From Sedimenticola sp. (GTDB lineage: Bacteria > Pseudomonadota > Gammaproteobacteria > Chromatiales > Chromatiaceae), in the NCBI GenBank assembly GCA_026197195.1, contig JAPHUG010000355.1, positions 1 through 10,846 on the forward strand: a stretch of DNA of 10,846 nucleotides. The letters run 5' to 3'. Of the stretch, positions 1-10,846 are shown one piece after another. How positions within the stretch are numbered: position 1 is the first letter of the stretch; every line of letters starts with the position of its first letter. Below the pieces are notes generated by a model. That model made no database searches and was not told where the DNA came from. It saw nothing but the letters and a program-made list of their open reading frames with translations. The position numbers and the translations under genes were made by a program.

Positions 1-929
1 GTCCAGAGCTCCTTGCCCAAGCGTGAAGGGTTATTGGCAATCACCGCATTGGCGGCCTTGAGAATGGTCGCCGTGGAGCGATAGTTCTGCTCCAACCGGA
101 CTAAAGGGGAATCACTGAAATGTTTGTTGAAGTCCCGAATATGCTCCACCCGGGCACCGCGCCAACCATAGATGGATTGGTCATCATCGCCCACCGCAAA
201 CAGGTTATTGCGCTCACCCGCCAGCAGCCGCAACCAGGCATACTGGATGGTGTTGGTATCCTGAAACTCATCCACAAGAATGTGCTGAAAACGCTCCCGA
301 TAGTGGTGCAGAATATCCGGCCTATCCCTTAACAGTTCATGGGCGCGCAACAACAGCTCAGCAAAATCCACCACACCGCCCCGCTCACAGGCCGCCTGGT
401 ATTCCGTGTAGATTCGGATCATGGTGCGCTGATAGGGATCGCCCCCGTCATCCATATGCTGGGGCCTGATCCCTTCATCCTTGCGGCCATTGATAAACCA
501 CTGCGCCTGACGCGGCGGCCAACGGGCCTCATCAAGATCCATCGCCTTGAGCAACCGCTTGATCATGCGGAACTGATCATCTGAATCGAGAATCTGAAAC
601 TGCTGGGGCAGATTGGCGTCCTTCCAGTGAGCCCGCAACAGGCGATGGGCCAAGCCGTGAAAGGTACCCACCCACATACCGCCGACCGGCTGGCCAAGCA
701 GATCCTCTATTCGACCCTTCATCTCCCGGGCCGCTTTATTGGTAAAGGTGACCGCCAGGATATTCCAGGGGGCCGCACCCACGACCTGCAACAGCCAGGC
801 AATACGGTGTACCAGCACCCGCGTCTTACCACTACCGGCACCGGCTAACACCAACATACCACCCGGCGGAGCAGAAACCGCTTCCCGCTGGGCATCGTTT
901 AAACCTTCAAGAATATGAGAGACGTCCAT
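1..929 (-). CDS. uvrD: DNA helicase II UvrD, N-terminal part (3' end beyond window)
   Basis: SF1A 3'-5' DNA helicase that removes incised oligonucleotides in nucleotide excision repair and acts in mismatch repair. Translating the minus strand from the ATG at 927-929 gives 309 residues open to the window edge, and they follow E. coli UvrD almost throughout. Visible motifs in order are the Q motif (LNDAQREAV, residues 10-18), Walker A (AGAGSGKT, 29-36), motif Ia (VTFTNKAAREM), the GTFHGLAHRLLRAH stretch, motif II (LVDEFQDTN), motif III (GDDDQSIYGWRGA) and motif IV (LEQNYRS). The start matches the family's MDVSxxL beginning. Only a weak Shine-Dalgarno (TAAG) lies upstream. The complete protein is usually about 720 residues, so roughly the first 43 percent is here. 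No canonical LexA box (CTG-N10-CAG) is seen upstream, unlike E. coli uvrD. Confidence 0.96.
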   Translation of the reverse strand, partial: MDVSHILEGLNDAQREAVSAPPGGMLVLAGAGSGKTRVLVHRIAWLLQVVGAAPWNILAVTFTNKAAREMKGRIEDLLGQPVGGMWVGTFHGLAHRLLRAHWKDANLPQQFQILDSDDQFRMIKRLLKAMDLDEARWPPRQAQWFINGRKDEGIRPQHMDDGGDPYQRTMIRIYTEYQAACERGGVVDFAELLLRAHELLRDRPDILHHYRERFQHILVDEFQDTNTIQYAWLRLLAGERNNLFAVGDDDQSIYGWRGARVEHIRDFNKHFSDSPLVRLEQNYRSTATILKAANAVIANNPSRLGKELW

Positions 930-1021
930 GGGAATATCTTAACAGTGGTTGCGCTGGATCACGACTATCGAAAATAGGTTTGTAGTAACCGATGGAATAG
1001 GGCGCTTATTGACCCGGGTCA

Positions 1022-1094
1022 TTTCCAGACAAAGACTAGCGCTCTATAAAGGGACCACGTGGAGGGCAATTGGATTTTTTACGCGCATTACAAT
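1022..1094 (+). promoter_or_regulatory. Candidate promoters for a plus-strand small transcript
   Basis: Two possible sigma70 promoters face the terminator at 1147-1180. The first has TTTCCA at 1022-1027, a 17-bp spacer and TATAAA at 1045-1050, giving a start near 1057. The second has a good -10 box, TACAAT at 1089-1094, giving a start near 1101, but no convincing -35. Both are matches by eye to consensus only. Confidence 0.3.
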
Positions 1095-1180
1095 AAACCC
1101 CGTGCTTGGGAGTCGCACATCATAAGGGGTTCCAGGAAGGAGTCTCACGGGCATTGATCGCGTCATGCCCGTTTTTTTTT
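1057..1180 (+). ncRNA. Candidate small RNA between uvrD and the acyl-CoA synthetase gene
   Basis: A strong plus-strand intrinsic terminator ends here, yet no plus-strand protein gene lies upstream: uvrD on one side and the synthetase on the other are both on the minus strand. The sequence between the candidate promoters and the terminator can fold into AACCCC (1096-1101) pairing with GGGGTT (1126-1131), then a single-stranded AGGAAGGAG stretch, then the terminator hairpin. Depending on the promoter used, the transcript would be about 80 or 124 nt. The exposed GGA triplets resemble CsrA/RsmA sites, and a U tail after a hairpin is also usual for Hfq-binding RNAs. I do not recognise a named family. 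The 5' end is uncertain. Confidence 0.4.
1147..1180 (+). terminator. Rho-independent terminator
   Basis: ACGGGCA at 1147-1153 pairs with TGCCCGT at 1166-1172. The stem can extend inward with TGA/TCA past a bulged T, leaving a 5-nt loop. Nine T residues follow at 1172-1180. The T tract is on the plus strand only; read on the minus strand the A run precedes the hairpin, so this is not an intrinsic terminator for the synthetase gene that ends at 1191. Confidence 0.8.
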
Positions 1181-1190
1181 TGCGCACCAG

Positions 1191-2756
1191 TCAGGCAGAC
1201 AACAGAGTGCAATAACGCTCACGCAACTTGGGTTTCTCGATCTTTCCCGTTGCATTCCGGGGAACCTGGTCAAACAAGACACGGCGGGGGCGTTTGTAGC
1301 GGGGCAGGCCTTCGGCATAGGCGATAACCGCCTGCTCCGTCAACTCACAGCCCGGTTTCAGTTGAATGATCGCCGTCACCACCTCACCCAGGCGCTGATC
1401 CGGTGTCCCGATCACCGCCACATCCTGAATGGCACAGTGCTCCATCAAAAAATGCTCCACCTCAACCGGCGAGACATTTTCACCGCCGGTAATGATCAGA
1501 TCTTTTTTACGATCCACCAGCCAGATAAAGCCCTCTTCATCGACGCGTGCCACATCACCGGTATGCAGCCATCCATCCCGCAACGTTTCAGCGGTGGCTT
1601 CCGCATTGCCATAGTAGCCCTGCATCACCCCCGGTCCCTTCACAATCAGTTCACCCGGCTCACCCACGGGCAGGGGCTGGTTATCGTCATCGACAATCGC
1701 GGCCTCCCAATCAAATCCAGGCTTTCCGATCGAACCTATCTTGTGGATGTTGCCCAGGCCCAGGTGGAGACAACCCGGACCGCTGCTTTCGGTCAGCCCG
1801 TAATTGGTATCGTACTCATGGTGAGGAAACAGCTTACGCCACGCCTTGATCAGATTGGGCGGCACCGGTTGGGCACCAATATGCATCAACCGCCACTGAT
1901 CCAGTTTATAACGGCTAAAATCGATAGCCCCGTTCTCCCAGGCGATCAGAATATCGTGCGCCCAGGGCACCAGTAACCAGACGATCGTCGCCTGCTCTTC
2001 CGAGATCGCCTGCAACACCCACTCAGGCTTTGCCCCTTTCAGCAACACCGCCTTGGCACCCACCACAAAATTGCCAAACCAGTGCATCTTGGCCCCGGTA
2101 TGGTAGAGCGGAGGAATGCAGAGAAAATTATCCTCATGGGTCTGCTTGTGGTGCTGATTCTCCACATAACAGGCGTGTTCAAGATTACGATGCGTCAGGC
2201 TCACCGCCTTCGGTTGCCCGGTGGTTCCCGAGGTGAAATAGAGGGCCGCCTCATCCATAAGCTGGAAGGAAACCGGCGGGGTATCCTCAGCCATACCGGC
2301 GATAAACTGTTCGTAGAGGACGGCATAATCAGGGCAGTCAGCATCCGGCCCAATATAGATATAGTGCTCCACCGACTGATCAAGCGCCGGTTTGATCGCA
2401 TTGATGCGCTCGATAAACTCAGGCCCAAACAGTAGCGCTTTCGCGGCTACCAGCTCATTACAGATCTTTAGGGTCTCTGACTCAAAGCGAAAATTGAGGG
2501 GCGCAACAATGGCACCTGAACGAATAATGCCGAAATAGCAGGGCAGCCATTCAAGCCCATTCATCATGAGATGAAGTACCCGATCGCCCTTAACGATACC
2601 CCGCGCCATTAGCGCATGGGCAAATACATTGGCGGTCGCATCAAATGCACGCCAACTGATCTCTCGTCGGCTGTTACGTTCAGGGTCGCGCTCAACCAAC
2701 GCAACCTCTTCACTGTACATACGGCTATTACGGGAAAGAATCTCGGTAATCAACAT
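1191..2756 (-). CDS. AMP-forming acyl-CoA synthetase (ANL superfamily)
   Basis: Adenylate-forming enzyme that activates a carboxylic acid with ATP to an acyl-AMP and transfers it to coenzyme A; cytosolic or loosely membrane-associated. Numbered from the ATG at 2754-2756 (521 aa) it shows the phosphate-binding loop TSGTTGQPK (175-183), the YGLTE adenine motif (319-323), the TGD motif (399-401) with the ribose-binding Asp, the hinge region DRKKDLIITGGENVSP, and the C-terminal NATGK with the catalytic Lys near 505. All key residues are present and the length is normal. A GTG at 2807 would add 17 residues but has no Shine-Dalgarno, and the family-like beginning MLITEILSRN supports the inner ATG, which has AGGT about 12 nt upstream. 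The many conserved aromatic and HTGAKMHWFG-type residues suggest a fatty or aryl acid substrate, but the acid cannot be fixed from sequence. It appears monocistronic. Confidence 0.93.
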   Translation of the reverse strand: MLITEILSRNSRMYSEEVALVERDPERNSRREISWRAFDATANVFAHALMARGIVKGDRVLHLMMNGLEWLPCYFGIIRSGAIVAPLNFRFESETLKICNELVAAKALLFGPEFIERINAIKPALDQSVEHYIYIGPDADCPDYAVLYEQFIAGMAEDTPPVSFQLMDEAALYFTSGTTGQPKAVSLTHRNLEHACYVENQHHKQTHEDNFLCIPPLYHTGAKMHWFGNFVVGAKAVLLKGAKPEWVLQAISEEQATIVWLLVPWAHDILIAWENGAIDFSRYKLDQWRLMHIGAQPVPPNLIKAWRKLFPHHEYDTNYGLTESSGPGCLHLGLGNIHKIGSIGKPGFDWEAAIVDDDNQPLPVGEPGELIVKGPGVMQGYYGNAEATAETLRDGWLHTGDVARVDEEGFIWLVDRKKDLIITGGENVSPVEVEHFLMEHCAIQDVAVIGTPDQRLGEVVTAIIQLKPGCELTEQAVIAYAEGLPRYKRPRRVLFDQVPRNATGKIEKPKLRERYCTLLSA

Positions 2757-2838
2757 CGCTGAAACGGACCTGGCACCTAAAACAGAGCTTACCCGGCCAA
2801 TCATCACGCTATCGCATCAGAACGCGCAATGGAGACAA

Positions 2839-2887
2839 ATCAGCACAGGTTATGTGGGGTTAATCTACCACATAAGCCAATGCTGAT
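2839..2887. repeat. 49-bp imperfect inverted repeat upstream of the synthetase gene
   Basis: Nested arms pair ATCAGCA (2839-2845) with TGCTGAT (2881-2887), GG (2848-2849) with CC (2877-2878), and TTATGTGG (2850-2857) with CCACATAA (2868-2875) around a 10-nt loop. It lies between the stop of the lipoprotein gene and the start of the synthetase gene. Neither strand has a T run after it, so it is not a textbook intrinsic terminator. It could be a factor-dependent termination hairpin, or the inner palindrome could be an operator for the synthetase gene. Confidence 0.6.
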
Positions 2888-2918
2888 GAACTTCTGCCTG
2901 AACCATTACCCGGTAATC

Positions 2919-3488
2919 TCATCGGGATTCCAGCGTGGCCAGGCTTCCCAGGGCGGCTGTAATCTCACTGAAGGTAGGGCGCAGAGATTCGGAAAAGTCC
3001 GCCATGGCGCCGTAACAGGTCAGCCGCATCACATTCGGCTGCTGCGAAGAGCTGAGCCAGAGGTGATAAAAATGTGCTACCAGAGGTTCACCACGCTCCC
3101 GTGCCGAAAGCCCCAGCCTTCGCAAAGGACTATTCCAACCCGCCAGTTGAATCATGGAATTCGCCACAATCTGGCTATGGCCCAACTGAACCCGCGTAAC
3201 CACGAAGCTGTCCGGATTAATGTGCTGTGGCTCCTGCTTCAGGTCACGCACCTCAAAATTGCAACTCGGGTGATACTGATCAAGATCGGAATGATCCGTG
3301 ACAACCCCTCGCTGTAGAAAACGCCGGGTATGGCCTGGCTCAATCTGAACGGCCACATGCAGGGTCAGCTCGCTCCCGGCAGGCACCTGATAGAACGCAG
3401 AAGTCCTGTCACGAACCGGTTGCTGGGAACAACCGATCAGAAACAGTACCCCCATGCTCACTAACACTCCTCTGAAAACAGAACCCAT
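2919..3488 (-). CDS. Small putative lipoprotein of unknown function
   Basis: I do not recognise the family. The ATG at 3486-3488 is chosen because a perfect GGAGGT sits 5 nt upstream; a GTG at 3503 would overlap that site. The 189-residue product starts with a basic residue and a hydrophobic segment ending in the lipobox FLIGC (Cys20), the signature of signal peptidase II cleavage and lipid attachment. Ser and Gln follow the Cys, with no Asp at +2, so outer-membrane sorting is expected. The mature part of about 170 residues has three further Cys-free blocks rich in beta-type residues (for example SELTLHVAVQIEPGHTRRF) and two cysteines that could form a disulfide. It is divergent from the Lys-rich exported protein gene, about 150 bp away. 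Confidence 0.75.
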   Translation of the reverse strand: MGSVFRGVLVSMGVLFLIGCSQQPVRDRTSAFYQVPAGSELTLHVAVQIEPGHTRRFLQRGVVTDHSDLDQYHPSCNFEVRDLKQEPQHINPDSFVVTRVQLGHSQIVANSMIQLAGWNSPLRRLGLSARERGEPLVAHFYHLWLSSSQQPNVMRLTCYGAMADFSESLRPTFSEITAALGSLATLESR

Positions 3489-3598
3489 TCTGCACCTCCA
3501 CACTAAGCGTAGACAATGACCGCTTGGCCCGGTTCATTGGTAGGCCACATCACTAGCCGAATTAACAATATTTTACCTCTTTTCATGAATCCAGCGTC

Positions 3599-3637
3599 TA
3601 TACTGGAAATTCTGAACAACATTTTAAGCAGCAGGTG
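3599..3637 (+). promoter_or_regulatory. Possible -10 box and ribosome binding site of the Lys-rich protein gene
   Basis: TATACT at 3599-3604 is a good -10 match 38 bp before the start codon, but no clear -35 precedes it at 16-18 bp. AGGTG at 3633-3637 is a Shine-Dalgarno 5 nt from the ATG at 3643. The 3489-3642 interval is a divergent promoter region shared with the lipoprotein gene. Confidence 0.4.
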
Positions 3638-3642
3638 TATCT

Positions 3643-3894
3643 ATGCGAATTCTTATCAGCACGCTACTCAGCACACTTCTACTCCTCAGCGCCGGTCAAG
3701 CCGTGGCCGAAAAAAAAGAGGGCAAAGCCTACGGGGCTGGCGGTGTATCCGAAGAGCATATGAGTGAAACGGCCGGTGAACACCGCAAGGCCTATGCAGG
3801 TGAAAAAGAGAAAAAAGTAAAAGAAGAGAAAGAAAAAAAGGAGAAGAAAATGAAGAAGGAGAAGAAAGAGAAAAAGATGAAAAAAGAAAAATAG
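3643..3894 (+). CDS. Small exported protein with Lys/Glu-rich tail
   Basis: An 83-residue protein with an Arg at position 2, a hydrophobic core (ILISTLLSTLLLLSAG) and an AVA signal peptidase I site at 20-22, so the mature product is about 61 residues in the periplasm or outside. Residues 23-52 are mixed and polar. From about residue 53 to the end only Lys, Glu, and a few Val and Met occur, in KEKK/KMKKEKK-like units, which should make one long charged helix or a disordered polycation. The DNA for the tail is almost pure purine on this strand, which is prone to slippage, so tail length may vary between strains. The Shine-Dalgarno and signal peptide argue that it is real and not a low-complexity shadow. 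Function is unknown; binding of anionic surface polymers or metals is only a guess. Confidence 0.72.
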   Translation: MRILISTLLSTLLLLSAGQAVAEKKEGKAYGAGGVSEEHMSETAGEHRKAYAGEKEKKVKEEKEKKEKKMKKEKKEKKMKKEK

Positions 3895-3917
3895 ATAACA
3901 GCGCCATCACTTCTCAA

Positions 3918-3948
3918 ACCAGGCTGTGGTGTCAACCCACCGCCTGGT
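3918..3948 (+). terminator. Hairpin after the Lys-rich protein gene
   Basis: ACCAGGC (3918-3924) pairs with GCCTGGT (3942-3948) and GTGG (3926-3929) with CCAC (3937-3940), around a 7-nt loop and one mismatch. It begins 24 bp after the stop codon. No T run follows, so it may be a factor-dependent terminator or a protective 3' hairpin. Confidence 0.45.
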
Positions 3949-4086
3949 CGCTCCCATATTAAAAACCCAACGCCAATCAAACCATAAAGAACAACAACCA
4001 GTGACCGAACCCCTGCCAAACAAGCCATCTTGGACTATGCTGAATTTAGGTTTGAAAAAACCTTGCTGGCTTGAAGGGGGGAAAGC

Positions 4087-4386
4087 ATGTTTGTAGCCAT
4101 GAGCAAGTTTGTCGTCACTAACAATATGAGTAACGAAGTGCGGGAGGCCTTTCGAAATCGTCCCGGTCTGGTTGATAGTGCCGAAGGTTTCATCCGCATG
4201 GAGGTACTGAATCCCGAAGATAACCCGGATGAATTCTGGCTCATCACCTACTGGCAGACCAGTGATAACTGGCATGAATGGTATCACGGGCACCAGTACA
4301 AGGCGTCACACAGCGGCATCCCAAAAGGACTGAAGTTAGATCCTGACGCCACAATGATTCGAACCTTTGAAGCAATCCCCTGTTAA
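4087..4386 (+). CDS. IsdG-type haem-degrading monooxygenase (ABM domain)
   Basis: A 99-residue single-domain protein of the antibiotic biosynthesis monooxygenase (dimeric alpha/beta barrel) fold. Members of the IsdG/HmoA/MhuD branch open the haem ring and release iron in the cytosol. The IsdG catalytic triad (Asn7, Trp67, His77) has clear counterparts: Asn12 in FVVTN, Trp65 in HEWYHG, and His75 in YKASH, with the same ten-residue Trp-His spacing. The RPG...GFIRMEVL stretch (25-41) is also typical. The start is set by a strong AAGGGGGG at 4074-4081, five bases before the ATG; the ATG at 4099 has none. It is followed after 24 bp by the B12-binding sensor gene and is probably co-transcribed with it and the diguanylate cyclase. 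Other ABM proteins oxidise quinone-like substrates, so haem as substrate is inferred from the triad. No clear promoter was found in 3950-4070. Confidence 0.8.
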   Translation: MFVAMSKFVVTNNMSNEVREAFRNRPGLVDSAEGFIRMEVLNPEDNPDEFWLITYWQTSDNWHEWYHGHQYKASHSGIPKGLKLDPDATMIRTFEAIPC

Positions 4387-4410
4387 GGTCTGTTGTGCGA
4401 GTAACTGGTT

Positions 4411-5442
4411 ATGACTACTGATCCACACACACCCTTTCCTGATATTGATAAAAACGCTGTGGTAGAGGCCGTCATAACAGCCTACCGTGAAAAGCAGCCG
4501 GCCCCTTTCCAGAGAGGCGGCCCAGCCTTTGAACAGAAATGTAGAGAGGACATCGCCTACCACCTCGATTATCTGAAAATCGCCACCCTCGCCAATGAGC
4601 CCGAGGTATTTGCCGAGTATTCACGCTGGCTCAGAGACGTACTACAAAACAGACAGGTACCCGAAGGCTGTATCACCACCTCTTACACCTTGCTGCAAAA
4701 CCATTTCACCCAGCGTCACCCGGAGCAGAGCAAAACCGTTTCAGCCATTATCGAGGCTGGTATCAATGCGGTGAATGATGACAAGCATCCACTGGTATCC
4801 CAACCGATAACCCGCGCACCCGAGCTAACAAAAAACTTTGCTTTAATGATCAGTCAGGGAGACCGCGCCAAGAGTCGTGAGCTCTATTTTGATCAGCTGC
4901 AACAAGGCCCAACACTGGCGCAAACCAATCTGGAACTGCTGCAACCCTCTCTGTACGAGATCGGTCGGCGCTGGCAAACCAATCAGCTGAGTGTCGCTCA
5001 AGAGCATATGGCCACCGCCATCTGCCAAAGCCTGATGGCCCAAGGCTTTGGTAAGGTCTCCTTTGCCCCCAGTACAGGAAAGCATGCTGTCTTTACCGCC
5101 GTCGAAGGGGCACAGCATGCCCTGGGGATACAGATGGTGGCAGATGGATTTGAAGAGGCGGGCTGGCGCTGTGATTATCTCGGGGCCAACACACCACTGA
5201 CTGACCTGATCACATTCCTGGATCGAGAAAAACCCGATCTGCTGGGACTTTCAGCCACGCTTCCAGTCGATATAACACGCGCCAGACAGATGACGACCCA
5301 ACTGCGTGTTGAACTGGGAAATGCCTGTCCCTTGATCATGGTGGGTGGGCTTGCTACCAATACCATCCCTCGCAGTTGGTCGCTCTGTGGTGCGGACATC
5401 TGGGCCATCAATACACTGGAAGCCATTAAAGAGAGCCAATGA
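4411..5442 (+). CDS. Cobalamin-binding sensor protein with CarH-like W-x9-EH motif
   Basis: A 343-residue soluble protein. Residues 1-125 are an all-helical region of unknown family. Residues 135-215 resemble the four-helix B12 cap domain (B12-binding_2), with IGRRW...VAQEHM giving Trp188-x9-Glu198-His199, the motif that covers the upper ligand of adenosylcobalamin in CarH/LitR photoreceptors. Residues 225-340 form the Rossmann-like B12 domain with His236 and Gly239 (xxHxxG, lower-axial ligand), GLSATLP and VGG. The usual acidic residue two before the His is Ala234. No MerR-type DNA-binding domain is present, so it should act through protein contacts. The next gene, a diguanylate cyclase, begins inside its stop codon (ATGA, 5439-5442), which argues for coupled translation and a direct partnership. 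No clear Shine-Dalgarno precedes its own ATG. Light sensing is inferred; a B12 or redox sensor is equally possible. It is unlikely to be a metabolic methyltransferase subunit, because no methyltransferase neighbours it. Confidence 0.85.
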   Translation: MTTDPHTPFPDIDKNAVVEAVITAYREKQPAPFQRGGPAFEQKCREDIAYHLDYLKIATLANEPEVFAEYSRWLRDVLQNRQVPEGCITTSYTLLQNHFTQRHPEQSKTVSAIIEAGINAVNDDKHPLVSQPITRAPELTKNFALMISQGDRAKSRELYFDQLQQGPTLAQTNLELLQPSLYEIGRRWQTNQLSVAQEHMATAICQSLMAQGFGKVSFAPSTGKHAVFTAVEGAQHALGIQMVADGFEEAGWRCDYLGANTPLTDLITFLDREKPDLLGLSATLPVDITRARQMTTQLRVELGNACPLIMVGGLATNTIPRSWSLCGADIWAINTLEAIKESQ

Positions 5443-6398
5443 ACCCCCTGTTACCGTCCGACGAAAAGAAATATATCCCGCTCTCTCTCATGAGTTTCCA
5501 AACCCTGCTGGTCGGTATTTTTCATCCGAACGGTGATGTACTCGAATCCAATGCCGGTTTTCGTACACTCCAATCCGATGATCATTCAAAAGAGGGATGG
5601 AACTGCAGTGAATGCTTCGTCAATCCCACCTTGGCACAATTAAAAACTACAGCCACACCCGCGACTGACCAGGCACCCATCTATCAAGGTGTTTTAACGC
5701 TCTGCTTTCCAGGCCATCAGTATCAGTCCGTAGAGGCCATGGTATTTCTACAGGATGGTCTGTTCTTTCTTGTCGCAGAATACAACGTCGAAGAGTTGGG
5801 ACAACTGAATACCCAGGTCACTGCTCTGAATGATGAGCTGACCCGAATGCAGCGGGAACTGGTACGCAGCAATCACAAGCTGGAAGAGCAGCGCGAACTT
5901 TATCGTATGGCCAGCATCACCGATGTATTAACCGGTCTCTATAACCGGCGCCACTTTATTGAATCACTCACTGAAGAGATGGAACGGTGTGATCGGTTCA
6001 ACAAGGCGCTCTCGTTAATACTCTGTGACATCGATCATTTCAAGCGTGTCAATGATACGTATGGGCATGATCAGGGTGATGCCGTATTGTGTGCCTTCTC
6101 CGCCCTGATCAAAAAAGAGTTACGCAGTTACGATGTTGCGGCCCGCTTTGGCGGAGAAGAGTTTGTCATACTGCTCCCCGAGTCGGACCTGGATCAAGCG
6201 GCCGTCATCGCTGAGCGATTAAGAGATATCGTAGCCACACACAAAGACGACGCACTGGCAACCTCGGTCACCGCCAGTTTTGGTGTCGCGCAGTACATTA
6301 AAGATGAAACCGAAGATGAACTGATCAAGCGCGCCGACCTGGCCCTCTATCAGGCCAAAACAAACGGACGCAATCGCATATCCACCTCAACAGACTGA
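5439..6398 (+). CDS. Diguanylate cyclase with N-terminal PAS-like domain (GGDEF)
   Basis: Condenses two GTP to cyclic di-GMP. The 319-residue product is cytosolic with no membrane segment. Residues about 15-115 look like a PAS-type sensor (LLVGIFHPNGDVLESNAGF start) and contain a Cys pair in WNCSECF. A coiled coil rich in Leu/Glu spans about 117-155 and should set the dimer. The GGDEF domain begins at DVLTGLYNRR (162 on), with metal-binding Asp197 in CDIDHFKRVND, active-site GGEEF (238-242) and the inhibitory RxxD site (Arg229-Asp232) five residues before it. Catalysis and product inhibition should both be intact. The start overlaps the stop of the B12-binding gene by four bases, so it is the likely output of that sensor. 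No EAL domain is present. An inner ATG at codon 18 is possible but would lose the overlap. Confidence 0.93.
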   Translation: MNPLLPSDEKKYIPLSLMSFQTLLVGIFHPNGDVLESNAGFRTLQSDDHSKEGWNCSECFVNPTLAQLKTTATPATDQAPIYQGVLTLCFPGHQYQSVEAMVFLQDGLFFLVAEYNVEELGQLNTQVTALNDELTRMQRELVRSNHKLEEQRELYRMASITDVLTGLYNRRHFIESLTEEMERCDRFNKALSLILCDIDHFKRVNDTYGHDQGDAVLCAFSALIKKELRSYDVAARFGGEEFVILLPESDLDQAAVIAERLRDIVATHKDDALATSVTASFGVAQYIKDETEDELIKRADLALYQAKTNGRNRISTSTD

Positions 6399-6412
6399 CA
6401 CACAAATCTAAA

Positions 6413-6456
6413 CACTATCGCAGATAGTGATCTATTATCGACACGTCCCGATAATA
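6413..6456. repeat. Two adjacent hairpins between convergent genes
   Basis: CACTATC (6413-6419) pairs with GATAGTG (6423-6429) around a 3-nt loop. TATTATCG (6433-6440) pairs with CGATAATA (6449-6456) around an 8-nt loop. They sit between the end of the cyclase gene and the end of the opposing thioredoxin gene. No T tract follows either, so they are probably 3'-end structures or bidirectional factor-dependent terminators. Confidence 0.5.
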
Positions 6457-6506
6457 AGGGCGGTTACCATAGGGTCTTCTTAAGGTGGACATCTTGAGGT
6501 AACGAT

Positions 6507-6845
6507 TTACGATGCTTTCCAGAGACGATAGATACGATCAACCTGACTGGTTAATTCGTGAAGACTAAAACCCCGCACTAACTCGAAGTACATCTGATCT
6601 TCGATATAGAGCTTTATCACCGGCAAGCTGAACACGCTATGTTGTGCACAGATAGCCGGACTCTGTTCACAGTCAACATAGGCCAGCGCAATATCAGGAA
6701 ACTGCTCTGTCATTAATGTTTCTATTTTTGGTTTGATGGACTGGCAAACACCACAATGCGCTCCGCCAAACAAGATAAGCAAAGCACCGTCAGATTTCAA
6801 TTGATCCAACTGGGTGATGGAAGAGAGAGTTTGCATCGTGGTCAT
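6507..6845 (-). CDS. Thioredoxin-like protein
   Basis: A 112-residue thioredoxin-fold protein that probably reduces disulfides in the cytosol. The redox motif is C31-G-V-C34 (HCGVCQSIKP), differing from the classical CGPC, and the cis-proline is Pro75 (FSLPVIKLY). The central strand LLILFGG and the C-terminal helix are in the usual places, and the length is normal. There is no signal peptide. Three starts are possible: TTG at 6866, ATG at 6845 and ATG at 6836. The first lacks support. The two ATGs each have a CAGG-type site nearby, and 6845 is a choice, not a certainty. Two extra cysteines (Cys59 and Cys66) are unusual. It lies downstream of the quinone reductase gene on the same strand, 79 bp apart, and may share its transcript. 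Confidence 0.85.
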   Translation of the reverse strand: MTTMQTLSSITQLDQLKSDGALLILFGGAHCGVCQSIKPKIETLMTEQFPDIALAYVDCEQSPAICAQHSVFSLPVIKLYIEDQMYFELVRGFSLHELTSQVDRIYRLWKAS

Positions 6846-6923
6846 ACCTGGCCTGCCTGCGATCAATGCGCGCTTGTTTTAACATTGCGTGAACGGCGGT
6901 CCATAACACTCAGGACATTAGGC

Positions 6924-7514
6924 TCACCAGCTTGCGATTGCTTTATCAATCCGTTTTTTAAATGCAGCAATCTTTTGCTCATTCAGTTTTTCACTATTGT
7001 ACAGAGAAAGAAACTGGAGTTTGCTGTTTCTGGCACAGGTACCCAGCAAGGCCCACTTTATTATTCGTTTCACGGGTTGTCGCAGTATCAGGTGATCCAC
7101 CCACCAAGGTGAACCCAGTGTGGTTACCACTAATACTTTTCTGAGATGATGCAGCCGAGGCTTGATGGGGCCATAATCAGTGGCATGATCATAGGCGATT
7201 CCGGGTCCCCAGACACGATCAAACCATCCCTTGAGCATGGCAGGAAAACCAAACCACCAGGTTGGAAACAGCAGCACCAACGCCTCCGCTTCCTGAAGTT
7301 CGCGGACCTGTTCTGAAATGCCTGATGAGTCATATTCCCCATCATAATAGGATCTTCTTTCAATCGCGGTTAATGCCGGCTCAAAACCCTCAGCATAGAG
7401 GTCTCTGACCGTCATCTCGTAACCCATTTGGGTTAGCTTGTTTTCGATGTGCATGCCCAACTGTTTGCAGAGGCTGTCATCTAATGGATGTGTTGTAACC
7501 ACAAGGCATTTCAT
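6924..7514 (-). CDS. NAD(P)H quinone oxidoreductase, flavodoxin fold (NQO1/KefF-like)
   Basis: An FAD- or FMN-dependent enzyme that transfers two electrons from NAD(P)H to quinones or electrophiles, cytosolic. The product of 196 residues opens with MKCLVVTTHPLDDSL, the typical first strand and flavin phosphate loop of the family. It contains the hallmark LLFPTWWFGFPAMLKGWFDRVWGPGIAY block, and later VVTTLGSPWWV. The ATG at 7512-7514 is chosen because the family begins here; an in-frame ATG at 7553 would add 13 very basic residues not seen in the family, and neither has a good Shine-Dalgarno. In enteric bacteria KefF regulates a potassium efflux channel, but no KefC-like gene is in this window, so the name should not be transferred. 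Confidence 0.88.
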   Translation of the reverse strand: MKCLVVTTHPLDDSLCKQLGMHIENKLTQMGYEMTVRDLYAEGFEPALTAIERRSYYDGEYDSSGISEQVRELQEAEALVLLFPTWWFGFPAMLKGWFDRVWGPGIAYDHATDYGPIKPRLHHLRKVLVVTTLGSPWWVDHLILRQPVKRIIKWALLGTCARNSKLQFLSLYNSEKLNEQKIAAFKKRIDKAIASW

Positions 7515-7575
7515 ACTTTTATTATGCCAACGATGCCGCTTTTTTGCAGCCATGAAAGGGAAATAATAGAGCGTG

Positions 7576-7631
7576 GTAGGGTGGGCATGGTTTTAATGCC
7601 CACGCAGTGGTTACCACATATCTTGTCCGAA
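7576..7631 (+). repeat. Dispersed hairpin repeat, copy 1 (56 bp)
   Basis: Identical base for base to 8541-8596. It starts with GTAGG and contains GTGGGCAT pairing with ATGCCCAC around a 7-nt loop, then GTGGT-t-ACCAC as a second hairpin, and ends TTGTCCGAA. Looser similarity (AAT-rich, then TCACA) continues for about 18 bp. The bipartite palindrome recalls REP or MITE elements. It lies upstream of the quinone reductase gene. Confidence 0.85.
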
Positions 7632-7763
7632 TAATAATAATTTCACATCTAACCAAACAGTGTAAATCTGCTTAAGCACATAAATGTACCCAACCTACTT
7701 GGCTTTGGACGTAAATCATCCCAAAGAATATGATACTAAAGAGCTCCGAATTCTTTCGTATTA

Positions 7764-8405
7764 TTACATTTTAGTCTGGCTAATGTAGCGATGGCCATTT
7801 TGCGGAAAGTATATAACTTCCTTATTTCCAACATCCAAGGCTGCACAGTTTCTTGCGCCACAATACAAATAGGCAAAACCATTGCCCATTTTTTGGGATT
7901 TAAGATTTATCTTATTAAACTCTCCTTTCTCAATCTTTAACAATAATTGTCTAGCTTCCTCTTTCCCCTGAGATTCATATTTCACCATAGTTAATAGAAA
8001 AATCACTGAAACAAATAGTATTACCCACGCATTATTATTTCTTGTGCGATATTTTCTCTCAAACGCACGATGTTTCTTAGTTGAAAGCTTTAGCTTCTTC
8101 TTTAATCCAACAAATTTTCTACCGTTCGAAAAGCTTTTAAAAAGATAATTACTAAGCTCAATTTTATACGCAGAATGGATAGTCACAAAGACCGCCCAAA
8201 TAAACGGAACTGTAAGGATCGTCCATATGTTGAGGATCATTCCATGATATATAATTTGATGGAAATTCCTATCCAAAATATCACTATCAAGATTCAACAA
8301 AGCAAAATATCCGTGTGTAAATGCTGTACTAGCCGAATAAAGAAAGGCCGTTACACACGCAAGGATTGCAGCACTGTCTAAGATCTTAATTGTCGACTCC
8401 TTCAA
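7764..8405 (-). CDS. Hypothetical three-helix membrane protein
   Basis: Family not recognised. The 213-residue frame has hydrophobic helices at about 10-37, 53-78 and 126-143, a strongly basic stretch between the second and third (LKKKLKLSTKKHRAFERKYR) that should face the cytosol, and a polar C-terminal region of about 70 residues with two Cys in YCGARNC. The codon at 8403-8405 is TTG with no ribosome site before it. A good AAGGAG lies inside the frame, six bases before an ATT codon at 8388-8390, and no ATG or GTG is near. The start is therefore odd: ATT, TTG, or a start lost by mutation. The gene is AT-rich compared with the left part of the window and sits between two identical 56-bp direct repeats, which fits recent acquisition. 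Confidence 0.6.
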   Translation of the reverse strand: MKESTIKILDSAAILACVTAFLYSASTAFTHGYFALLNLDSDILDRNFHQIIYHGMILNIWTILTVPFIWAVFVTIHSAYKIELSNYLFKSFSNGRKFVGLKKKLKLSTKKHRAFERKYRTRNNNAWVILFVSVIFLLTMVKYESQGKEEARQLLLKIEKGEFNKINLKSQKMGNGFAYLYCGARNCAALDVGNKEVIYFPQNGHRYISQTKM

Positions 8406-8540
8406 AAAATCAACATTTAGGTTAATGGACGCAAAGTATAAAAGCTGTGAATCGCTCCAGCTTGCTCATTAGCCACTTGTCATCACTAAATGAAACTTCG
8501 CACATACTGGGCAGTTACTTAAATACCGAACGCTTGAATT

Positions 8541-8596
8541 GTAGGGTGGGCATGGTTTTAATGCCCACGCAGTGGTTACCACATATCTTGTCCGAA
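8541..8596 (+). repeat. Dispersed hairpin repeat, copy 2 (56 bp)
   Basis: Perfect direct copy of 7576-7631, with the same two palindromes. Together the two copies bracket the membrane protein gene in a segment of about 965 bp. It also lies just beyond the 3' end of the DUF2726 gene, where its hairpins could protect or end that transcript. Confidence 0.85.
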
Positions 8597-8621
8597 CAAA
8601 TAATATCTCACAACCACATTG

Positions 8622-9287
8622 TTAAGCATTTGAATTTTCGATGTAACGACATTTCGGAAAAGCACTGCATGCGAGAAACTGGGTGCCCTTGTGTTCTCCC
8701 TTCTTCGCAATCTTTTTGACAAGGGGTGAAGCGCATTTTGGGCACACGTGTTTTTCTTTATCTTCGGCTTGGATTATTTCAGGCAACGAAGGCTCGTCCA
8801 CAGCTTCTTCTACCGGAGGAAAAAGGACATTCCGTACATCGCTTATGCTGTACGTTGCTGCGGCTTTGAAACGGTGCAATGGCAGCCCAGCGCCGGAACA
8901 GGCACTTTCAAGGAAGCGATCTCGTTCCAGGCGTTTTCCTTTAGCATGTGATTTATCATCCAATTCGACGACAGCCAGAACCGACAGCGTATCAGGCGTA
9001 CAAATAACGTAATCAAAGTGCTTGGAGGAGATTCGATTGAATGCTTTTTGCCAGTTGCTTCTCCCCAGGCCTTTGGGTGGTCGGAGGATATCGGCTACAC
9101 GCACTTTTCCAAAAACAACGGCCTGATCTTGTACCGCTTGATTTAAGACACCGAAGAAAGACCTTTCAGCAGGCGAAAATAATTGTCCATTTTTTTCGTA
9201 CGAGAAATCATTCGCGCCATCCCTCTGTTTCGCAAGTATTACTAGTACTACCAGAAATAATAGACCCAGCAAAAGCAACCATTCCAT
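8622..9287 (-). CDS. Membrane-anchored DUF2726 nuclease-fold protein with C4 zinc finger
   Basis: A 221-residue protein. The ATG at 9285-9287 has AAAGGA six bases upstream; a longer frame to 9335 has no such site. Residues 3-20 (WLLLLGLLFLVVLVILAK) form one N-terminal membrane helix. Residues about 35-165 match DUF2726, a PD-(D/E)XK nuclease-like fold: LFSPAERSFFGVL, then VRVADIL, then FDYVICTPDTL followed by AVVELDDKSH and the KRLERDRFL helix. After an acidic linker comes a topoisomerase-type C4 zinc ribbon (CPKC near 183, then FLACSAFPKC). Known members carry this combination in many proteobacteria without a settled function. The acidic residues needed for metal binding seem present, but nuclease activity is not shown. 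It lies alone between two hairpin repeats. Confidence 0.85.
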   Translation of the reverse strand: MEWLLLLGLLFLVVLVILAKQRDGANDFSYEKNGQLFSPAERSFFGVLNQAVQDQAVVFGKVRVADILRPPKGLGRSNWQKAFNRISSKHFDYVICTPDTLSVLAVVELDDKSHAKGKRLERDRFLESACSGAGLPLHRFKAAATYSISDVRNVLFPPVEEAVDEPSLPEIIQAEDKEKHVCPKCASPLVKKIAKKGEHKGTQFLACSAFPKCRYIENSNA

Positions 9288-9383
9288 GTCGTTTCCTTTT
9301 ATGCGTAACGCTTTAGCTTTAGAGTGGCCGGGCAATAGCGAGTATGTCCCAACGTCACGATAGCATGCGACAACAGTTACACC

Positions 9384-9412
9384 GCGTGGGCATTAAAACA
9401 TGCCCACCCTAC
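9384..9412 (-). repeat. Dispersed hairpin repeat, copy 3 (inverted, short)
   Basis: The minus strand reads as the first 29-30 bp of copies 1 and 2, with one G missing in the loop, and keeps the GTGGGCAT/ATGCCCAC palindrome. The second hairpin and the tail of the long copies are absent, so this is a truncated or minimal unit in the opposite orientation. Confidence 0.8.
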
Positions 9413-9569
9413 CTGGCTGCCAATCTAACTGTCATGTAATCAATGCTGCCCCCAGAGAATTGAAGGTATGATTTACACACAACTATTTTATTGATTTATC
9501 GGGCGTGTCCATATATGACCCTATTGATACTGACTGCCTTAATGTTCAAAAGCCTATTGTTACGCATGT
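9413..9569. other. Gene-free AT-rich spacer
   Basis: Together with 9288-9383 and repeat copy 3 this makes about 280 bp without a gene, between the DUF2726 gene and the end of the Shedu-like gene. I see no strong terminator, tRNA or attachment site in it. Confidence 0.5.
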
Positions 9570-10846
9570 TTAATAGTTTATTACTTTTTGCTCAGATGTT
9601 TCGACTAAAGAAGCCCTGTGCTCCTCTAGGAAAGGGGCACCTTTAACTCTGTCATATAGTTTTAGAAGCCTACTCTTTGCCCTCTGAATAACAACTTGAT
9701 AGTCCATGGGCTGAATAATGCACCTATCATTATTTTCCTTTCTAACTCCCCTTTCGATTGGATCTACTTCGCTACCTAGGACAAAACATGTGACCCTAGT
9801 ATTTTGATCAATTAAGCCATTTTTGAGCAACTCGGTGACATAACGCCAACATTGCCCCTTTTCATCTGTACTAATTGGAACTCCTGGCTTTTTAAGCTCC
9901 ACAACTACCAGCCTATCAACCCCAATTTCTCCCCCGTCTTCGTCATAGGTTGGGTAGGAATACGCTCCTACAGAACTGTCAGGCAAAATAGCAAAGTCAG
10001 GCCGATTCCTTGTACCTTTCTCATTGGAGTTGAATAGCTTCTGTATTACCTTCGTCATTCCCTCGTTTGAAGTAAACTCAATAGTTTCAAACTCAGGGCC
10101 AAATATCCATAAGCCTTGATGGAACAAAGGCTGAAGATCTTGTACTTCTCTGGTGTTTGTATCAAATACTCTTTCTCTCAGCTCATCAAGTATTCTTAGC
10201 CTCAGCTGCAACTCATCAAGAACTTCTTTAGCGAGATCTAAGCTCCACTCAGATAGAATGATGTGCAGATTATCTATTTGACTTGAATCTAACTCGTGTA
10301 GCTTGCTTATAAGTGCATACTTAGTATCTGACTGCTCCATCGCGACTAGAACGCCCGCCATTTTTGAAAGGTCTTTCTCTGTAATCGAAGTACACTCTTC
10401 CTGTACTTTCGATACAAAATCTTCCCATCTCTCTGCTCTCAATGGAGTTAGTGTTTGTAGCTTATCGCGATGAGTGCTCTTGATAATGTCCAGGGTCTGT
10501 TTTCTTTTTTGTTTCGTTTGCCCTAGTAAATGCGCCTTAACGAATGAGAAAACTGCATCCCGAGCCTCGATGAACTCTTCATTTTCAACGAATCCAGTCC
10601 AATCTTTTTTAACATGTGGGCTCAAAAAATCTGACTCAATAATAAAGGTATGACGCTTTGCCTCTTTACTTCTTCCATCGACAATATCTTCTAGGCCGTA
10701 GCTCTTCCAATTAGACTCACCAACCAAGCGCCCCTTTACATGCCACGCCACACCGTGCTGTTTGGTAGTTTTGTCTGACTCTTGAGTATCAATGATAGTA
10801 ACGCGAACCTCATGACCAGACTCAAGGACTAATTTCTCTTCTGATA
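9570..10846 (-). CDS. C-terminal part of a large protein with Shedu (DUF4263)-like nuclease domain, 5' end beyond window
   Basis: The minus frame is open from the window edge to the stop at 9570-9572, giving 424 residues. The GTG at 10751 is not a real start, because the frame continues upstream without a stop (SEEKLVLESGHEVRVTIIDT...). The last 200 residues resemble the DUF4263 domain of the antiphage protein SduA: DLQPLFHQGLWIFGPEFE, then RPDF with Asp at 9996-9998, then VVVELKKP with Glu at 9897-9899 and Lys just after, then a Gln in GQCWRYV. This is a complete D...ExK...Q set of a PD-(D/E)XK nuclease. The middle is helical. The first residues could be the end of a GHKL ATPase/transducer region as in some Shedu relatives, but this is a guess. 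It is AT-rich and sits at the edge of the repeat-bearing island. Other restriction-type nucleases remain possible. Confidence 0.72.
   Translation of the reverse strand, partial: SEEKLVLESGHEVRVTIIDTQESDKTTKQHGVAWHVKGRLVGESNWKSYGLEDIVDGRSKEAKRHTFIIESDFLSPHVKKDWTGFVENEEFIEARDAVFSFVKAHLLGQTKQKRKQTLDIIKSTHRDKLQTLTPLRAERWEDFVSKVQEECTSITEKDLSKMAGVLVAMEQSDTKYALISKLHELDSSQIDNLHIILSEWSLDLAKEVLDELQLRLRILDELRERVFDTNTREVQDLQPLFHQGLWIFGPEFETIEFTSNEGMTKVIQKLFNSNEKGTRNRPDFAILPDSSVGAYSYPTYDEDGGEIGVDRLVVVELKKPGVPISTDEKGQCWRYVTELLKNGLIDQNTRVTCFVLGSEVDPIERGVRKENNDRCIIQPMDYQVVIQRAKSRLLKLYDRVKGAPFLEEHRASLVETSEQKVINY

Follow-up and report, generated by a model that had tools for sequence, protein, structure and literature searches.

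The 10,846-nucleotide stretch of Sedimenticola sp. contig JAPHUG010000355.1 analysed here (positions 1 to 10,846, forward strand; hereafter the window) contains an operon of three genes that, judged from sequence and predicted fold, probably constitutes a light-sensing unit (a reading to which we give a rough probability of 0.6), composed of a photocobilin, a diguanylate cyclase as its likely target and a haem-oxygenase-like protein of the ABM family. The type of sensor is known; the element that looks new is the ABM partner, which has serine at the position of a catalytic asparagine. Photocobilins, which respond to light over a broad spectrum, have been described recently; in 2024 they were reported to switch a diguanylate cyclase, either fused to it or in trans (PMC10979010), so that control by a B12 protein of cyclic di-GMP (c-di-GMP) rather than of DNA or RNA, put forward as a novelty in an earlier note on this DNA, was already in print. 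That paper calls the function of stand-alone photocobilins "less clear", and the terms haem oxygenase, monooxygenase and operon do not occur in its main text; the natural source of the bilin and the natural targets therefore look open. Here a natural photocobilin of the stand-alone kind lies next to its likely target, a coupling domain is common to cyclase outputs and some of the kinase outputs, and the haem-oxygenase-like partner is conserved; both questions become testable with three genes.

The probable photocobilin and its signalling partners

ORF (open reading frame) calling places the three genes in a row on the forward strand (Table 1), with a 24-bp gap between the ABM and photocobilin genes and the four-base overlap of photocobilin and cyclase genes that the earlier note had described. 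Pfam recognizes an ABM domain in the first product (E 5.4e-13), two B12-binding domains in the second and a GGDEF domain in the third. The order goes beyond chance, since it is identical in a second genome of the genus (G002, 99% complete), with 86%, 68% and 68% identity for the three genes in turn. The sensor gene is patchily distributed, being present in 1 of 8 other genomes of the genus and, its own included, in 7 of 369 sampled Gammaproteobacterial genomes, with an ABM gene adjoining it in 4 of the 7; the window's own assembly is 65.6% complete.

The second gene probably encodes a photocobilin, predicted to bind adenosylcobalamin (AdoCbl) and a linear tetrapyrrole. The B12 domain with His236 had been correctly recognized in the earlier note, which treated the protein as a plain B12 sensor and so missed the photoglobin at residues ~14-122. 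A bare B12 sensor is rejected, as the N-terminal ~122 residues are phycobiliprotein-like; the Pfam Phycobilisome match to this region (E 8e-4) is below the cut-off of that family and is backed by profile comparisons and fold. The B12 module, to which the photoglobin is fused on the N-terminal side, is of the CarH type, with the W-x9-EH signature and the axial histidine, and the putative bilin-pocket residues Asp47 and Trp73 are 26 residues apart, as are Asp270 and Trp296 of SasPcob. Cys44, a candidate for covalent bilin attachment, aligns with the phycocyanin attachment cysteine and is kept in 35 of 78 homologues, in an alignment without the duplicates L001 and L003 and without L009, L016, L017, L021 and L066, which are broken or partial. 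The four light-signature motifs GxxW, EH, GxxH and GxxxP given in the accessible text of PMC11796333 can be read by eye in the window protein; the Trp, the Glu-His, the His and both the Gly and Pro of GxxxP are invariant in the family, the Gly of GxxH being absent in L003/L010. Cys44 appeared to be tied to ABM presence (21/32 versus 14/46, Fisher p 0.003), but nothing remains after allowing for relatedness and no such tie is claimed. A designed repeat protein (7rdr) found in the structure search with the globin at E 2.5e-8 was taken as an artefact, and a poor single-sequence structure model (predicted local distance difference test score 43) was set aside.

In comparison with SasPcob and AbDPcob (8J2W, 8J2X, 8J2Y), the window protein shares the fold of the B12 module and its pocket residues, has a photoglobin with equivalents of Asp270 and Trp296, and it would share the c-di-GMP output of AbDPcob. 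The globin is, however, N-terminal in the window protein and C-terminal in both of the others, an N-terminal group being noted in the accessible text of PMC10979010; the window cyclase is a separate gene, an ABM partner is added, and Cys44 occupies a position at which SasPcob aligns Thr. Unlike the CarH/LitR B12 photoreceptors, the window protein has a photoglobin and no DNA-binding domain.

With its GGEEF site, RxxD I-site and full-length domain, the third gene product is the complete GGDEF enzyme that had been noted before and is predicted to be an active diguanylate cyclase. SiaD is its best-scoring NCBIfam cyclase model, but the score (201.8 bits) is under the cut-off of 290 and the protein is not assigned to that family. 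The SiaC-SiaD system, as described in the part of PMC8457831 available to us, likewise combines a soluble cyclase, a helical stalk and a separate binding protein as the switch, although the SiaD activator, SiaC, is not a photoreceptor. The stalk motif LNDELTRMQREL, a pattern set post hoc and without a control, is present in 30 of 84 loci, the window's own copy (L001) included, and accompanies both types of output. The relatives compared are the 80 that most resemble the window family among at least 537. Among the 79 downstream genes compared (those of the window, of L002 and of 77 of the 80 loci, with L010, L030 and L063 left out), 19 encode a GGDEF domain; kinases, recognized by HATPase_c, are commoner (52/79). 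In L006 the cyclase gene is convergent to the photocobilin gene.

The N-terminal domain of the cyclase is common to 10 cyclase partners and 7 betaproteobacterial kinases (hhalign 100%, E 6e-40). A single N-terminal domain on all partners is rejected, as only the last helix aligned (44.5%) between the 10 cyclases and 23 other kinases from Chloroflexota, Thiotrichaceae, Competibacteraceae and others; all three sets were hand-picked. Searches of the PDB with this coupling domain gave no trustworthy match, the designed repeat proteins and weak matches found being taken as artefacts. At four Bacteroidota loci (Hymenobacteraceae: L018, L024, L028, L056), the first three of which had their partners scanned singly, a short partner ends after the stalk motif with no output domain in the same ORF.

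Other photocobilin architectures were also encountered. L030:3321-5984 is a single 888-aa ORF in which Pfam recognizes PAS-PAS-GGDEF-B12; reading of the sequence adds a photoglobin between GGDEF and B12, so that globin precedes B12 whereas in AbDPcob B12 precedes globin. One Gammaproteobacterial genome (G445) has three photocobilin-like matches (L142-L144), and contigs labelled Lokiarchaeota carry photocobilin homologues at L023, where a kinase follows, and at L027.

A serine-type ABM protein linked to photocobilins

An ABM gene is linked to the photocobilin gene in 31 of the 80 relatives, a fraction that is biased toward the window's relatives because the 80 were chosen by likeness, and the conserved ABM neighbour anticipated in the earlier note is thus borne out. 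In 30 of these the ABM gene is upstream on the same strand, separated by -14 to 55 bp except in L017, where the frame is broken; in L059 it is downstream, within a fusion. ABM matches average 118/48 = 2.5 per genome; if a genome is assumed to have ~4,000 genes, chance would place an ABM gene immediately upstream at ~0.05 of the 80 loci, and the 30 observed therefore establish linkage beyond chance. In the reverse test, 12 of the 369 Gammaproteobacterial genomes match the window ABM at 1e-10. All four that encode the serine type (the window's own, G111, G255 and G325) have it adjoining a photocobilin gene, divergently in G111; the other eight matches are weaker, with Asn in the seven that were read (all but L135), and no photocobilin ORF lies in any of the eight loci.

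As labelled, hosts of the ABM-photocobilin pair belong to the Pseudomonadota, Bacteroidota, Planctomycetota, Thermodesulfobacteriota, Nitrospirota and Gemmatimonadota. When mapped on a tree of 77 photocobilins, made by a quick method and weakly supported at 30 of its 74 inner branches, presence of the ABM needs 10 changes, versus a shuffled mean of ~25, with at least 5 changes forced by well-supported branches, and repeated gain or loss of the pair follows. In a Mantel test the distances among ABMs correlate with those among photocobilins (r 0.65, 31 pairs, 0 of 9999 shuffles as high), to which shared ancestry contributes.

The closest PDB matches to the ABM protein are TT1380 (1iuj), IsdI and HmoB-type proteins; its score with NCBIfam HmuQ (41.4 bits) is far under the cut-off of 130. 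The IsdG triad consists of Asn7, Trp67 and His77, of which Asn7 is called critical in the accessible text of PMC6018153. The earlier note had this triad as kept. The canonical triad is rejected: family, Trp and His are those of an IsdG-type haem oxygenase, but alignment to IsdI and TT1380 places Ser6 at the Asn position, and the same holds for all linked ABMs that could be compared (33 aligned, the window's copy included, 32 of them having the Asn column). Relative to IsdG, IsdI, MhuD and HmuQ, the linked family has the same fold and the Trp and His of the triad, and differs by this substitution, by a largely conserved C-terminal PKGLKLxP stretch and by adjacency or fusion to sensor proteins. 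Among 30 control loci (L085-L114), 18 have an ABM profile match. Nine adjoin a photocobilin gene, all with Ser, and repeat genes already in the alignment of 33; of the nine unlinked, six do not have the triad and three keep Trp and His, all with Asn, these being in genomes (those of L008, L032 and L073) that bear a photocobilin with no linked ABM seen.

Serine-type ABMs are also found fused, to a kinase in L059 (with an additional sub-threshold PAS match), to PAS in L128 and, by reading of the sequence, to a PAS-like part in L076. The photocobilins of L059 and L076 are sisters, and L076 and L128 have a Cys-rich end in common; these may therefore not be three independent events. The latter two fusions (L076:3532-4833, L128:811-1827) both terminate in an ICMxC...HGYCPxC segment.

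The BBAG-2 and photoglobin clusters described in the accessible text of PMC10151467 likewise combine a bilin-binding globin and a B12 protein with a nearby gene for bilin synthesis, but their bilin genes encode a canonical haem oxygenase and a bilin reductase, in contrast to the IsdG-fold ABM with Ser found here. We found no paper on photoglobin-type neighbourhoods in general, and none on the ABM-photocobilin link in a search that did not extend to the Schneider 2022 photoglobin paper. That 2022 paper reportedly describes neighbourhoods with signalling domains, so the kinase/cyclase link may have been published already, and possibly the ABM link as well.

Table 1. Features of the three-gene operon (positions in the window; residues numbered within each protein)
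Feature	Position	Strand	Basis
ABM protein, 99 aa, IsdG/HmuQ-like fold, photocobilin-linked Ser-type subfamily	4087..4386	+	Pfam, PDB matches
Ser6, at IsdG catalytic Asn position	4102..4104	+	32/32 linked ABMs with the column
Trp65 (IsdG Trp67 position)	4279..4281	+	33/33 linked ABMs
His75 (IsdG haem ligand His77 position)	4309..4311	+	33/33 linked ABMs
Probable photocobilin, 343 aa: photoglobin, four-helix cap, Rossmann B12 domain	4411..5442	+	Pfam, profiles, fold
N-terminal photoglobin, residues 14-122	4450..4776	+	profile matches, fold
Cys44-Arg-Glu-Asp47, aligned with phycocyanin alpha Cys-Ala-Arg-Asp; Asp47 = SasPcob Asp270	4540..4551	+	alignments
Trp73 = SasPcob Trp296 (near bilin D ring in SasPcob)	4627..4629	+	78/78 homologues, alignment
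B12-binding_2 four-helix cap	4837..5040	+	PF02607 E 6.4e-12
Trp188-x9-Glu198-His199, AdoCbl upper-ligand pocket signature	4972..5007	+	78/78; aligned with SasPcob Trp61/Glu71/His72
B12-binding Rossmann domain	5083..5427	+	PF02310 E 4.2e-16
His236, predicted lower axial Co ligand (SasPcob His108)	5116..5118	+	78/78 aligned homologues
ATGA overlap, 4 bp: photocobilin stop, cyclase start	5439..5442	+	sequence
Diguanylate cyclase (predicted), 319 aa	5439..6398	+	GGDEF E 1.4e-49
N-terminal coupling domain, without Pfam match	5439..5813	+	matches domain of betaproteobacterial kinase partners
Helical stalk with LNDELTRMQREL motif	5820..5912	+	motif pattern
I-site RSYD (RxxD, residues 229-232) and active-site GGEEF (residues 238-242)	6123..6164	+	read from sequence

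Proposed mechanism and alternatives

Sequence and predicted fold show the gene order, the domains, the aligned pocket residues, the co-occurrence and fusions of the ABM, and the coupling domain common to some kinase partners; the chromophores, the light response, the direction of its effect, the protein contacts and catalysis by the ABM are inferred. The photocobilin would bind AdoCbl through His236 in its CarH-like module, and its photoglobin would probably hold a linear tetrapyrrole. Visible light, directly or by way of the bilin, would split the Co-C bond; the four-helix cap and dimer contacts would shift after photolysis, and the rearranged photocobilin would make direct contact with the cyclase, at its N-terminal domain and its helical stalk, and so alter c-di-GMP output. 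Signalling in trans is the likely mechanism by analogy, because photocobilins have been published as cyclase switches and SiaD is switched by a stalk-binding protein (PMC8457831, accessible text). The earlier proposal that cobalamin, light or haem status controls a second messenger stands, again by analogy, as far as control by the B12 protein is concerned, but the cyclase is just one of two usual outputs. A haem-degrading type of partner would be explained by the bilin-binding globin: the ABM may make, hold or load a haem-derived bilin for it and, in some loci, be part of a signalling protein, and we consider the chances of a role in bilin supply or loading about even. A more speculative and rather unlikely elaboration is a widespread three-part photoreceptor with the serine-type ABM as a dedicated subunit for making or loading the chromophore: it would cleave haem when required and pass the bilin on to Cys44/Asp47 of the photoglobin, with light, oxygen, haem and B12 read together and passed to a cyclase or kinase through an interchangeable coupling domain.

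In addition to the biased choice of relatives, several observations weigh against a light-sensing unit supplied with bilin by its ABM. No ABM is visible at 49 of the 80 loci, although almost nothing or nothing of the upstream region is visible in L008 and L080 and less than 400 bp in L009 and L033, and photocobilins in general therefore do not need one. AbDPcob holds biliverdin weakly, at about 20% occupancy, and SasPcob without biliverdin has the opposite effect on AbDGC, activating it in the dark (both from the accessible text of PMC10979010); neither bilin occupancy nor direction of effect can therefore be assumed. The oxidase family PF00115 is encoded in 31 of 32 ABM-bearing genomes, the sole exception being the window's own incomplete one, versus 21 of 47 others (Fisher 5e-7; L008 and L080, at contig edges, and L019 left out), but the association is not significant with relatedness removed (2.7 pairs the same way, 0.0 opposite, p 0.25). 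PF00115 also covers nitric oxide reductases. Presence of the ABM is not anticorrelated with the haem oxygenase family PF01126 (6/32 versus 6/47, p 0.53), overall or within PF00115-bearing genomes, and the idea that the ABM stands in for a missing haem oxygenase is rejected; absence of PF01126 is in any case weak evidence, as the family can miss distant haem oxygenases.

Haem cleavage may also have been lost, since Ser replaces the asparagine called critical in PMC6018153, and the ABM could instead be an adaptor, whether it binds haem or bilin or plays a structural part only, that relays or gates the signal between photocobilin and output, an alternative we regard as a serious if lesser prospect. 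The contrast between the uniform Ser of linked ABMs and the Asn of all three unlinked ABMs that keep Trp and His is what an adaptor would lead one to expect, as are the fusions to signalling-type proteins and the correlated distances, but the invariant Trp and His would be odd in a pure scaffold and the company of PF00115 fits an O2-using enzyme. Moreover, the MhuD Asn7Ala substitution is described in the accessible text of PMC6018153 as lowering activity, and a serine protein therefore need not be dead.

That cobalamin or haem status, and not light, is the input seems unlikely. It would agree with the different dark cyclase activities of apo and AdoCbl-bound AbDPcob (PMC10979010, accessible text), with the labelling of many relatives as anaerobe or sediment lineages and with the inclusion in the window's family, probably Sedimenticolaceae, of a Sedimenticola symbiont (L003, of the same family, lies exactly within L010, Candidatus Sedimenticola endophacoides); it is at odds with the presence of all four light-signature motifs, most positions of which are invariant. 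Action of the ABM on some other substrate, with mere co-transcription, we hold to be very improbable: the score cut-offs of the NCBIfam haem degraders are not reached, but the gene is upstream of photocobilin genes in several phyla, fusions to signalling proteins occur and every serine-type ABM in the 369 genomes adjoins a photocobilin. PF03992 covers many non-haem enzymes, which counts in favour of another substrate.

Other features of the window

Rfam gave no matches for an RNA regulator within the window, and a promoter and terminator scan was close to the shuffled background. A small Lys-rich protein with a signal-like start, by reading of the sequence, and no Pfam match is encoded at 3643-3894 (+), and is also found upstream of the operon in G002 (L002). 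On the reverse strand, 9570-10751 (-) encodes a protein of 393 aa that weakly matches the C-terminal domain of Shedu SduA (E 0.004, under the cut-off); it adjoins a DUF2726/zinc-ribbon gene and is possibly defence-related.
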